A stretch of 64,000 nucleotides of DNA from Ancylobacter mangrovi (GTDB taxonomy: Bacteria > Pseudomonadota > Alphaproteobacteria > Rhizobiales > Xanthobacteraceae): contig NZ_JANTHZ010000013.1 in assembly GCF_024752355.1 (NCBI RefSeq), positions 62,001-126,000 of the forward strand, in the 5' to 3' direction. The notes under the pieces were generated by a model that saw only the letters and a list, made by a program, of their open reading frames with translations, ran no database searches and was not told where the DNA came from. Shown here piece after piece: positions 9,837-49,952 of the stretch. Within the stretch, counting starts at the first letter, position 1. Every line of letters begins with the position of its first letter. The translations under genes were made by a program, and so were the position numbers.

Positions 9837-9879
9837 GGCCGCCGACGCATAGGTAACTGTGCGAGAGGCGCCCGGCCCC

Positions 9880-9908
9880 TTCCAAGCGGGAGGGGGAGCG
9901 CCTATATT
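9880..9908 (+). promoter_or_regulatory. Predicted tmRNA promoter
   Basis: A -10 TATATT at 9903-9908 is preceded at 17 nt by a weak -35 TTCCAA (9880-9885). The predicted start near 9914 coincides with the first hairpin of the tmRNA precursor (GCCGGC-GCAA-GCCGGC). Confidence 0.5.
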
Positions 9909-9913
9909 CCGGG

Positions 9914-10240
9914 TGCCGGCGCAAGCCGGCTACGGCGATAAACGGTTACCGCAATAAACCTTTCGGACCCGGGGGCAGTACCCGGCGCCTCCACCCGAGC
10001 CCATCCCGCCTGCCTTTCGGCCCGGTGGGTTCCGGCGGGGGCGAAACAGGATCGACGAGGGCGTAAAGGGTAGGCTTTCGCTCGGCATGGTACCGCCGTC
10101 ATCGGACCAAACATATAGTTGCCAACGACAACTATGCTCCGGTTGCTCAGGCCGCGTGAGCGGTTTGATCTCTGGGAAATAAGTCCTTGCGGGTAGCACT
10201 GTAAGGCGGGGTTCGGAGGCACCTGGCAACAGAAGCCTCC
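9914..10240 (+). ncRNA. ssrA: tmRNA, circularly permuted two-piece alphaproteobacterial form
   Basis: Rescues stalled ribosomes and tags their products for proteolysis. The gene order is permuted: the tRNA-like acceptor piece (about 9914-9995, ending CGCCTCC plus ACC) comes first, then a roughly 40-nt spacer presumably removed in processing, then the coding piece (10037-10240, starting GGGGGCG-AAACAGG). The 7-bp acceptor stem forms between 10037-10043 and 9986-9992 with one wobble pair. The tag frame runs 10121-10156 and encodes ANDNYAPVAQAA, then TGA. The 3' part holds the conserved CACCTGGCAACAGAAGCC. The 5' and 3' limits are approximate. The sspB gene, whose product recognises this tag, follows 60 bp later. 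Confidence 0.95.
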
Positions 10241-10300
10241 ACTTTCTTTTAATCTTAGGTCCGGCTGGCGGTCGGGGCTGGAATCGGGTTCATTGCCGGC

Positions 10301-46350: not shown

Positions 46351-46854
46351 TCAGCCGCTCTCTAAGCTGGAGCGCAGCCGCCGGATATGGCCGGCCACGG
46401 CGTTGTCCGAGGGAGCTTCCGGCGCCGCGAGGCCGGCATCGAGCCGGACGATGCGCGCCTGCAGCGTGTGGCTGCGCTCGACCAGCGCGCGCAGGCTCTC
46501 GGGCAGCGCGGTCTCCTGCTCCTCGTCGCGCGGCGAGCCCAGAAGGTCGATCTTCGCCGCCTCGCGCCGCGCCGTCTCCACCGACATGTCGCCCTCGGCC
46601 ACCGCCCGTTGCAGCAGCAGCCAGGAGGCGAGCTGCATCAGCCGGGTGGAGAGCTTGAGGCTCTGCTGGGCATAGGCGTTGAGCGCGGTGCGGTCGAGCG
46701 CGCGGCTCTCGGCGCGCCCGCTGCCGTCGAGATAGGCCGCGGCCTCGTCGACCAGCGCCATGCCTTCGGTGAACAGCGTCTCGAACGCCGCCGAATCGAG
46801 GCGGCGCGCGGCGAGGTTCACCGGCTGCCGCTCATTCCTGTCCGCGTGTCCCAT
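46351..46854 (-). CDS. rcdA: RcdA-type protease adaptor (DUF1465)
   Basis: A 167-residue helical protein of the DUF1465 family, which includes Caulobacter RcdA, a ClpXP accessory factor needed for cell-cycle proteolysis of CtrA. Family-like segments are FETLFTEGMALVDEAAAYLD, QQSLKLSTRLMQLASWLLLQ (the three-helix core) and EAAKIDLL. The C-terminal tail is variable. The frame is open 15 codons upstream, but MGHADRNERQ at 46854 with AGG close by is preferred. A perfect CtrA box lies about 220 bp upstream, with a candidate sRNA and its terminator in between. Confidence 0.75.
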   Translation of the reverse strand: MGHADRNERQPVNLAARRLDSAAFETLFTEGMALVDEAAAYLDGSGRAESRALDRTALNAYAQQSLKLSTRLMQLASWLLLQRAVAEGDMSVETARREAAKIDLLGSPRDEEQETALPESLRALVERSHTLQARIVRLDAGLAAPEAPSDNAVAGHIRRLRSSLESG

Positions 46855-46960
46855 CCTGCCGTCCCGACGACTGATCGCGCCACGAGGCGCCAGCACCAAG
46901 CCTGTCGCGCAGATGAGCCCGGCTGTCCAGCCATGCCAAGCCCCGCGGCGGCGGACCGCA

Positions 46961-46989
46961 CAAAAAAGAGCCGCCCGGAGGGGCGGCTC
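46961..46989 (-). terminator. Strong minus-strand intrinsic terminator
   Basis: A 9-bp perfect stem (46968-46976 with 46981-46989), tetraloop, then TTTTTTG on the minus strand. No protein gene ends nearby on this strand except the cupin gene 220 bp away, so it most likely ends the candidate sRNA. Confidence 0.85.
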
Positions 46990-47053
46990 GAAAGTCTAGA
47001 CAGGGATGCGTCAAACAGAGTGGACAGGGGCCACTCACGGCCAAAATCGACCG
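46961..47053 (-). ncRNA. Candidate CtrA-activated small RNA
   Basis: Predicted, not homology-based. From a start near 47053 (set by the -10 TATTAC at 47065-47060), the minus-strand transcript would be about 90 nt. It contains a hairpin GAGTGG-loop-CCACTC (47036-47018) with loop CCCCUGU, a single-stranded middle, and a terminator hairpin with a 9-bp stem (46989-46968), loop CUCC and six U. Both loops are C-rich and could pair with Shine-Dalgarno sequences, a common targeting style of alphaproteobacterial sRNAs. The promoter region has a perfect CtrA box. The transcript ends before rcdA, so it is not simply the rcdA leader. No reading frame of note. Confidence 0.5.
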
Positions 47054-47059
47054 CTACCA

Positions 47060-47091
47060 GTAATAGATCGGAAAGCTTAATGCGCAGTTAA
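47060..47091 (-). promoter_or_regulatory. CtrA box (TTAA-N7-TTAA) with downstream -10
   Basis: A perfect full CtrA site at 47077-47091. On the minus strand its centre occupies the -35 position, 17 nt before -10 TATTAC (47065-47060). This is the usual geometry of CtrA-activated promoters. Confidence 0.6.
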
Positions 47092-47209
47092 GGCGGGCAG
47101 CCGCGTGCCGATGCCGGCACGCAGGCAGATGCCCGGCGCAAGAGGCGCCCGGATATTCGCCGAATACTTGGCCCGCGCCGGGCGGGGGCGGGCGGGGACG
47201 CCCGGCCGC

Positions 47210-47605
47210 TCAGCCGCCGTACTGCGCGTCGCTGACATGCTCCATCCAGTCGACCGCCTTGCCGTCCAGCTTCTCCTGGATGGCGATATGCGTCATCGCC
47301 GTGGCCGGGCCGGCCCCGTGCCAGTGCTTCTCGCCGGGCGGAAACCAGACCACGTCGCCGGGGCGGATCTCTTCGACCGGGCCGCCCTCGCGCTGCACGC
47401 GCCCGACGCCCGCAGTGACGACGAGCGTCTGGCCGAGCGGATGGGTGTGCCAGGCGGTGCGGGCGCCGGGCTCGAAGGTGACGGCGGCGCCGGCCACCCG
47501 GGCCGGGTCCGACGCGTCGAATAGCGGGTCGATCCGCACCTCGCCGGTGAACCATTCTGAGGGGCCCTTGCGGGAGGCCTGATCGCCCGCGCGCTGGATA
47601 TTCAT
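47210..47605 (-). CDS. Cupin domain protein
   Basis: A 131-residue single-domain cupin. Motif 1 is [20 protein letters not shown] (His-x-His metal ligands) and motif 2 is [18 protein letters not shown]. The C-terminal [19 protein letters not shown] is typical of the small cupins annotated as quercetin-dioxygenase-like or carboxymuconolactone-decarboxylase-associated. Substrate unknown. It is single, downstream of DUF1192 on the same strand. Confidence 0.9.
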
Positions 47606-47690
47606 GGGTCTTCCTTTCAGGTGTGACGGCCCGGGCACGTGGCCGGCGCGGGTGCTGCGTCGCGCCGTGCGTGTCGCCCGGGCGGGCAGC

Positions 47691-47897
47691 CTATCGCTTG
47701 AAGAAGGTGTCCGCCGCCGTGCGCGAGGCGCGCTTCGATTCCAGCGTGCGCCGCAGGCGCTCGATCTCGGACTGGAGCGCGCCGATGCGCTCCTCGATCT
47801 CGGCTTCCGACAGGGCGGAGAGGTCGGTGCCGAGCTCGTGGGTCGCCGGCTTCTTCGCCGGGGGCGCTCCGAAGAGGTCGTCCGCATCGATCGCCAT
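47691..47897 (-). CDS. DUF1192 family small coiled-coil protein
   Basis: A 68-residue protein with the DUF1192 pattern: [20 protein letters not shown], then a helix [20 protein letters not shown] predicted to form a coiled coil, ending in ADTFFKR. Function unknown. The start at 47897 lies 6 nt from GGAGG; an upstream ATG (47903) touches the ribosome site. It is divergent from a quinone oxidoreductase, its usual neighbour in Rhizobiales. Confidence 0.85.
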
Positions 47898-49177: not shown

Positions 49178-49337
49178 GTGCGGGGCTGCGAGGCTCGTCA
49201 GGAGAACATATTCCCCGGGGCCTTATCGATCTCAAAGGGAGCTGTCCCTGACTGGACCCCTGGGTCCGGATAAACGGCGCCCACCTACGTTGTAGGTTCC
49301 CGGGATCGATCATCCAACGGCCATCGCGGCTCCGCAC
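49178..49337 (+). ncRNA. ssrS: 6S RNA
   Basis: A regulatory RNA that binds sigma70 RNA polymerase by mimicking an open promoter. The ends pair perfectly: 49178-49190 (GTGCGGGGCTGCG) with 49325-49337 form 13 bp including two G-U pairs. They enclose exactly 160 nt, the usual 6S length. The internal sequence contains the alphaproteobacterial-like blocks GGCGCCCACCTACGTTGTAG and TTCCCGGGATCGAT. The 5-formyl-THF cyclo-ligase gene, the classical downstream partner of ssrS, starts 12 bp after the RNA. Confidence 0.88.
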
Positions 49338-49349
49338 AGTTCATTCATT

Positions 49350-49952
49350 ATGTCCGAAAGTAACGCGCTCACCGACAAGGCCAGCCTCCGCTCCGTCGCC
49401 CTGGGACGGCGGGCGGCGCTCGACCCGTCGGCGCGCGAGGTCGCGGCTGCGGCCGCCGCCCGCTTCGCCCTGAAATGGCTGGGCGACGTCTCCGGCGAGA
49501 CGGTCTCCGTCTTCACCCCCATCGGCACCGAAATCTCGACCGACCCGCTGGTGCGCGGCCTGCGCGCCGCGGGCGCCGCCATCGCGCTGCCGGTGGTGAT
49601 CGCCAAGAACAAGCCGCTCTCCTTCCGGCTGTGGGAGGAGGGCGTCGAGCTGGTGCCGAGCGCGGGGCCCGGGTTGATCGTCATTCCCGCCCCGCCGGAC
49701 GGCGCGCGGATCGTCGAGCCGGACGTGCTGGTCGTTCCGCTCGCGGCCTTCGACGCGCACGGGCACCGGCTGGGCTACGGCGCCGGCTTCTACGACCGCA
49801 CCCTCGCCGGGCTGCGGCGGGCCAAGCGCATCGAGGCGATCGGCTATGCCTTCTCGGTGCAGCAGCTTCCCGCCGTGCCGGCGGAACCCCATGACGAACG
49901 CCTCGATGCCATCGCTACCGATGCCGGCATCATCTGCCCGGCGGAGGATTAG
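49350..49952 (+). CDS. fau: 5-formyltetrahydrofolate cyclo-ligase
   Basis: Converts 5-formyl-THF to 5,10-methenyl-THF with ATP, in folate salvage. The 200-residue protein shows LRSVALGRRAALDPSAREVA at the N-terminus, the phosphate-binding basic loop, VVPLAAFDAHGHRLGYGAGF and YDRTLAGLR. Start 12 bp after 6S RNA; in other bacteria ssrS and this gene are co-transcribed and processed. Followed after 3 bp by the YmdB-type gene. Confidence 0.95.
   Translation: MSESNALTDKASLRSVALGRRAALDPSAREVAAAAAARFALKWLGDVSGETVSVFTPIGTEISTDPLVRGLRAAGAAIALPVVIAKNKPLSFRLWEEGVELVPSAGPGLIVIPAPPDGARIVEPDVLVVPLAAFDAHGHRLGYGAGFYDRTLAGLRRAKRIEAIGYAFSVQQLPAVPAEPHDERLDAIATDAGIICPAED

Follow-up and report, generated by a model that had tools for sequence, protein, structure and literature searches.

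CtrA governs the cell cycle and differentiation across the Alphaproteobacteria. The small RNA (sRNA) BjrC1505 is reported to have been detected in B. japonicum. Several other described RNAs bear comparison with the locus reported here. In the alphaR8/suhB family (RF00519, with MmgR and SisA-D), a 10-mer (UUUCCUCCCU) pairs with mRNAs ahead of their start codons and thereby represses them, anti-Shine-Dalgarno pairing has been shown for SisA, and the sisA-D promoters are described as having no common motif, as far as the available part of PMC12559287 goes. EcpR1 of Sinorhizobium, in the excerpts at hand, is encoded downstream of divK-pleD, carries the loop UCCGCCGCAUCU, and is subject to stringent control, and GspR is there reported to be conserved in Sinorhizobium/Ensifer; both act on cell-cycle mRNAs. 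In Caulobacter, the RNA CcnA, whose gene lies at the replication origin, is linked to CtrA and has a CCCC loop (accessible text of PMC8959179). Also in Caulobacter, full CtrA motifs with their 5' base near -35 belong to promoters whose activity tracks CtrA at the predivisional stage, the motif of ctrA P2 having its 5' base at -39, and rcdA is named together with six non-coding RNAs among the CtrA-linked promoters (available sections of PMC4287350). CtrA control of rcdA has been predicted or tested in several species, according to the portions available of PMC2877005, PMC3616915, PMC4433202, PMC10469942, and PMC4287350.

The locus that we compare with these systems lies in a 64-kb stretch of Ancylobacter mangrovi DNA, the whole of which was analysed and is referred to below as the window. 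Its minus-strand segment 46961-47098 matches Rfam RF02356 (BjrC1505) over the full length of the model (positions 1-140; 101.4 bits; E 2e-18; gathering threshold 50), promoter included, and is the one RF02356 match in the host genome. The locus agrees with the family along the entire model, in structure as well as in sequence; it is with near certainty a BjrC1505 member and, judged on these two grounds, a genuine gene for an sRNA whose family already has a name. By BLASTN, the window aligns with three named Ancylobacter loci (L110, L120, L166) over 5.3-5.9 kb at about 84% and with a further locus, L190, over 3.6 kb at 85.2%, as would be expected of an Ancylobacter. A preliminary description of this DNA had proposed a candidate sRNA of about 90 nt from a CtrA box and the neighboring rcdA, to be checked by an Rfam search and by covariation of its hairpins in relatives; the predicted RNA, the conserved box, and the adjoining DUF1465 gene have all held up, the search and the covariation both came out in its favor, and the family name, absent from that description, can now be supplied. 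In the alignment to RF02356, the box occupies positions 8-22 of the model; with the predicted start at box+38, the first ~45 positions of the model are therefore probably promoter.

Three points are new as far as our literature search goes: that the CtrA box is conserved, that the sRNA is coupled to rcdA, and that the Rfam model probably includes a promoter. One open paper was found that names the BjrC1505 family (as a table entry), with neither the CtrA box nor the rcdA linkage in it, and searches with the core sequences and RF02356 found no further paper. An sRNA between box and rcdA is not mentioned in the available main-text portions of the literature on rcdA, CtrA, and sRNAs; the original paper on BjrC1505, Madhugiri et al. 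2012, may hold part of this.

The CtrA box (47077-47091, minus strand, reading TTAACTGCGCATTAA) is, as the preliminary description had it, a perfect TTAA-N7-TTAA, the sole one in the window, and none arose in 100 shuffles. The -10-like TATTAC at 47060-47065 (minus) is also present as claimed, its first base lying 19 nt from the box centre (47084) by our count on the sequence and not the 17 nt given earlier. A TATNA element at box+26 to box+30 in relatives places the start near box+38, i.e., at 47053, the same position at which the 5' end had been put before. The 5' base of the box would thus precede the predicted start by 38 nt, and in Caulobacter a full TTAA-N7-TTAA near -35 is typical of promoters activated by CtrA, as the accessible text of PMC4287350 describes it. 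A sigma-70 consensus scan of 46800-47700 found no promoter, which counts against the explanation that we prefer. The host genome encodes CtrA (L377; NF045991, 418 bits against a cut-off of 350) and also ChpT. From the sequence, we hold it very probable that the sRNA is CtrA-activated. At the host ctrA gene itself, the best CtrA box in the 300 nt upstream of the start has at most 5/8 letters; CtrA autoregulation is common elsewhere.

Conservation was followed in 218 loci, of which L001-L100 were obtained via the Rfam model and L101-L218 (from named genomes) via a core-plus-terminator pattern only; 212 of these yielded 214 occurrences, the loci L040, L050, L058, L059, L060, and L077 having no core-plus-terminator hit and being excluded from the box and synteny counts. 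The best upstream TTAA-N7-TTAA agreed at 8/8 letters in 114 occurrences, at 7/8 in 95, and at 6/8 in 3, with 2 cut by the locus end. Among 92 dereplicated sequences, from which four further occurrences with cut upstream sequence were excluded, the corresponding counts were 53, 37, and 2, i.e., at least 7/8 letters in 90 of 92, a level reached by 3.0% of mononucleotide shuffles; the box is in none of the search patterns, and its conservation in L001-L100 is partly selection, since the RF02356 model includes it. In the same 92 sequences, the box columns carry 1.19-2.0 bits. Of the spacer columns, the first, with the C of TTAAC, has 1.0 and the remaining six have 0.03-0.35; the twelve columns 5' of the box reach at most 0.3. 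At 7/8 or better, the spacing control over the 214 occurrences is not clean (N7 209, N6 95, N10 51, N9 43, N4 29, N5 27, N8 23); for perfect 8/8 boxes, the counts are 114 for N7, 3 for N6, 5 for N10, 2 for N5, and 0 for each of N9, N4, and N8. The preliminary description had made the element stand or fall with conservation of box and hairpins in relatives, and it stands, through the box figure just given and through stems that covary.

The predicted sRNA, about 92 nt with its start taken from the box and -10 and its end from the terminator (46961-47053, minus; 93 nt when read from 47053 to 46961), forms four hairpins, the fold having an energy of -39.6 kcal/mol (z -4.66; 0/200 shuffles as good). 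Stem-loop 1 (47038-47053), stem-loop 2 (47018-47036; GAGTGG-CCCCTGT-CCACTC), and the intrinsic terminator (46962-46989; 9-bp stem 46989-46968, loop CTCC, then U6), all on the minus strand, covary in 60 representatives, hand-chosen from the 92, and the terminator is the only terminator-like site within 46800-47700. Stem-loop 2 with its CCCCUGU loop and the terminator with its CUCC loop and U6 had been recognized previously; the 5' hairpin (47053-47038) and the core (TTTGACGCATCCCTGTC) had been missed. Pairing cells amount to 96.8% in the 60 relatives, with two-sided changes in 12 of 24 pairs (shuffle mean 3.9; slid controls 3-6). Around the core, three of four pairs are invariant and one varies on one side only, so sequence rather than pairing may be what is kept there.

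The core itself, at 46999-47015 (minus; UUUGACGCAUCCCUGUC in the host, UUUGACGCCUCCCUGUU in the family), is the candidate seed. Its conservation is quoted from L001-L100 only, because the search pattern fixed the core of L101-L218; among these hundred, several genomes being present twice, the 17-nt core is unchanged in 78, with one difference in 10, two in 11, and six in 1. The host core shows the family sequence with two differences (CAUCCCUGUC), as do five congeners fetched; this form (GACGCAUCCCUGUC) recurs at the loci of A. amanitiformis and A. radicis, and the A. defluvii core keeps CCUCCC. The host seed, CAUCCC, is less Shine-Dalgarno-like than the CCUCCC of the family, a point against the preferred explanation. 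The C-rich loop of stem-loop 2, earlier put forward as the active part, is rejected as a family-wide seed because it varies: most members have CUCCUGU and Mesorhizobium-type members another sequence, and the most conserved part is the CCUCCC core.

In layout, the family resembles alphaR8, which likewise has a CCUCCCU-type core between a weak hairpin and the terminator, and the conserved BjrC1505 core resembles the anti-Shine-Dalgarno seed proven for alphaR8 in the part of the literature available; from a core layout with proven repression, an anti-Shine-Dalgarno repressor, here timed by CtrA, is therefore to be expected. Taken as a whole, the explanation that we find best, and hold reasonably likely, is that of a CtrA-driven BjrC1505 sRNA that represses in trans by anti-Shine-Dalgarno pairing. 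Phosphorylated CtrA would bind the full box, which spans the -35 region, and turn the promoter on when CtrA is high, i.e., by analogy with Caulobacter, at the predivisional stage. RNA polymerase would then make an RNA of ~92 nt, stopping at its own terminator before rcdA, and the exposed CCUCCC-type core (CAUCCC in the host) would, as in alphaR8, pair in trans near the Shine-Dalgarno regions of target mRNAs and lower their translation. Since the sRNA gene heads rcdA, the RNA would most likely serve the same period of CtrA activity as RcdA.

The neighborhood of the RNA bears on the strongest alternative. In the host, the promoter is preceded by a cupin gene (47210-47605, minus; Pfam Cupin_2), and the RNA is followed by rcdA (46351-46854, minus, from an ATG, a TTG start at 46899 being possible), beyond which, in many relatives by tblastn synteny, lies rpmE for ribosomal protein L31 (45963-46187, plus; PF01197). 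For the DUF1465/RcdA gene, the DUF1465 part of the earlier assignment is upheld (PF07323, 155.4 bits; cut-off 25), whereas the NCBIfam RcdA score of 161.3 bits falls below its cut-off of 170, and the name RcdA therefore rests on PF07323 and position. The element could be mainly an rcdA 5' leader, through which CtrA drives rcdA, with the terminator setting how much read-through occurs and the short RNA arising as a by-product or as a second product. This would agree with rcdA following the RNA in the same direction in 193 of 214 occurrences (and never in another orientation), with the failure to find a second CtrA box between terminator and rcdA in the host genome, and with the predicted or tested CtrA control of rcdA reported in the available texts cited above. 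We nevertheless hold it unlikely, on four counts: (i) the 21 occurrences without an rcdA detected beside them (i.e., without a tblastn hit to ten RcdA queries, which diverged copies can escape; 7 have at most 800 nt of downstream sequence and 14 have more) all keep a box of at least 7/8; (ii) box, core, and terminator are kept in three genomes, G238, G365, and G462, with loci resembling named Sneathiella ones, where rcdA is 41-45 kb off on the same contig; (iii) a second box of at least 7/8, seemingly that of rcdA itself, stands between terminator and rcdA in 75 of the 193 linked occurrences (28/82 dereplicated), as compared with 3/192 shuffled gaps; and (iv) the core is conserved more strictly than a metering hairpin needs.

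Perfect second boxes are found mostly in Mesorhizobium, Phyllobacterium, Chelativorans, and similar loci, and the second box at L055 belongs to a tandem RNA copy. Because the second box is present in the 75 linked occurrences and was not detected in the host, some lineages seem to have separate CtrA promoters for sRNA and rcdA; in other lineages, rcdA may be served by read-through or another promoter. Given these second boxes and the box kept in all 21 occurrences without a detected rcdA, the RNA seems to form an independent unit, and a trans-acting sRNA that functions autonomously, as we propose, is the probable case. Tandem BjrC1505 copies were seen at L055 and L211, each copy with its own TTAA-N7-TTAA box, and the BjrC1505 match at L041, over cut-off and with a perfect box, comes from genome G198, which gives no match to PF07323.

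Across the 198 genomes of the host's family, RF02356 was matched at E <=0.001 in 173 and over cut-off in 172, and across 385 genomes drawn from the class in 40 and 17, respectively, the genome surveys having used stricter filters or a loose first look by which weak matches can be lost. The core-plus-terminator pattern found at least 118 stretches in named genomes; among the matches listed are Mesorhizobium, Phyllobacterium, Roseibium, Stappia, Bosea, Devosia, Hyphomicrobium, Parvibaculum, Sneathiella, and one Brucella species. The 14 control genomes gave no RF02356 match; Caulobacter vibrioides, which has rcdA, is one of them. In the 198 family genomes, by a table compiled by hand with five genomes assigned by elimination, sRNA (over cut-off) and rcdA are both present in 172, rcdA without the sRNA in 6, neither in 20, and the sRNA alone in 0; G116, one of the 20 lacking rcdA, has a sub-threshold RNA match. 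The six genomes with rcdA only have weak RcdA matches (E 5e-23 to 1e-4, most others being near 1e-55) and still have rcdA near rpmE, with no core found within their 3.3-kb loci; weak RcdA occurs also in two sRNA-bearing genomes, G090 (1.6e-29) and G126 (1.3e-5), both incomplete assemblies. In three of the six (L219, L221, L224), a 7/8 CtrA-like box lies ~275 nt upstream of the diverged rcdA. Class-wide, rcdA is present in 35 of the 40 genomes with the sRNA at E <=0.001 and in 16 of the 17 over cut-off, and 105 of 140 rcdA genomes are without an RF02356 match at E <=0.001 under strict filters. The coupling is thus one-sided, i.e., the RNA is rarely without rcdA and rcdA often without the RNA, which is therefore not needed for RcdA as such. 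Co-deletion of sRNA and rcdA is explained by linkage alone; that the RNA is lost next to a diverged rcdA would be consistent with relaxed control of CtrA turnover.

The likeness to alphaR8 raises a second alternative, namely that the RNA is a diverged alphaR8 (RF00519: MmgR, SisA-D) paralogue with the same role and overlapping targets, placed under the control of CtrA. The common layout (CCUCCCU core, ACUU, GC-rich terminator), RF00519 matches below threshold at the BjrC1505 loci of 2/13 genomes (29.6 bits in the host and 30.9), and seed-matching sites that suit both RNAs would speak for it; we regard it as improbable in view of the shortfall of 29.6 bits against a threshold of 41, the absence of the alphaR8 10-mer from the 93-nt RNA, and the separate alphaR8 genes present in 13/13 genomes tested. 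BjrC1505 also keeps a CtrA box, whereas the sisA-D promoters are without a shared motif in the available text on them. In the host, three alphaR8 genes over cut-off lie within 1.2 kb on contig C3 (16733-17901; L355, L358, L366), outside the window, and in the congener G022 three likewise share a contig, lying within 1.4 kb.

Candidate targets of the sRNA that we propose were sought as seed-matching sites (ACAGGGAGG-N2-10-ATG), listed in 20 genomes; all 58 distinct sites of 11 genomes were fetched, together with one further site each from G000 and G022, which were not counted. ORFs of at least 60 aa stood at 51 of the 58 sites, and 17 of these encode periplasmic solute-binding proteins (by Pfam, with 25/60 families listed, and by reading of the ORFs; L228, L233-L235, L246, L247, L251, L259-L261, L269, L271, L273, L274, L280-L282). 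A control with one letter changed (ACAAGGAGG) gave 60 rows, 59 distinct sites, all of which were fetched, and 38 ORFs in the same 11 genomes, 4 of them solute-binding (3 by Pfam, with 25/47 families listed, and 1 by reading); the enrichment (17/51 vs 4/38; Fisher p 0.013) was noticed post hoc. We do not claim solute-binding proteins as BjrC1505 targets, because these 17 sites fit alphaR8 better (mean pairing -24.9 vs -20.5 for BjrC1505): 16 of them read ACAGGGAGGA, which suits alphaR8, and BjrC1505 pairs with them more weakly than with the other 41 sites (-22.9). Pairing of the core with the host ctrA and rcdA leaders was not above shuffles, 34% and 16% of which were as good, and both leaders are rejected as core targets in the host.

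That the RNA is a trans-acting anti-Shine-Dalgarno sRNA whose box serves repression or another regulator, CtrA not being its activator, is a further reading that we doubt strongly: in its favor, the Hyphomonas neptunium rcdA is not CtrA-regulated (available part of PMC7200025, in a statement covering rcdA alone), yet the full motif, the 7-nt spacing, and the activator position, together with a genome encoding CtrA and ChpT, argue for activation. Identity with EcpR1, a relation raised in the preliminary description, is rejected, as EcpR1 stands at another locus (divK-pleD, against cupin and rcdA here) and its loop is absent from the 93-nt RNA; GspR, by its description as a Sinorhizobium/Ensifer RNA, is rejected as the same RNA. 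CcnA, compared by description in the accessible text, shares with this locus the CtrA link and the CCCC loop, and differs in being encoded at the replication origin; the CCCC loop of the locus is itself not conserved in the BjrC1505 family.

A broader reading of the CtrA-driven sRNA is tentative, and we would not yet expect it to hold: BjrC1505 might be an RNA arm, of ancient origin, within the module for CtrA proteolysis, in which a CtrA promoter heading rcdA would yield a trans-acting anti-Shine-Dalgarno RNA during the period when RcdA is made, such that CtrA would set up its own removal and silence a set of mRNAs. Present in many alphaproteobacterial genera and without a match in Caulobacter, such an arm would hence have escaped study, and some CtrA sites assigned to rcdA might partly be BjrC1505 sites. 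Through a deeply conserved sRNA that has a full CtrA box as its promoter and is mostly kept ahead of rcdA, a named and functionally unstudied Rfam family would gain a regulator, a timing, and a circuit; an RNA output of CtrA would become testable in genera beyond Caulobacter; and the RF02356 model, in which the first third appears to be promoter, would be corrected, with a bearing on the CtrA sites so far assigned to rcdA.

Two further RNA genes were seen in the window. A two-piece alphaproteobacterial tmRNA lies at 9876-10250 (plus; RF01849, 300 bits; ARAGORN tag ANDNYAPVAQAA). A 6S RNA (RF00013, 88 bits) lies at 49180-49336 (plus), just upstream of the ORF 49350-49952, which we take to encode 5-formyltetrahydrofolate cyclo-ligase; the gene for this enzyme is also the neighbor of the E. 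coli 6S RNA.
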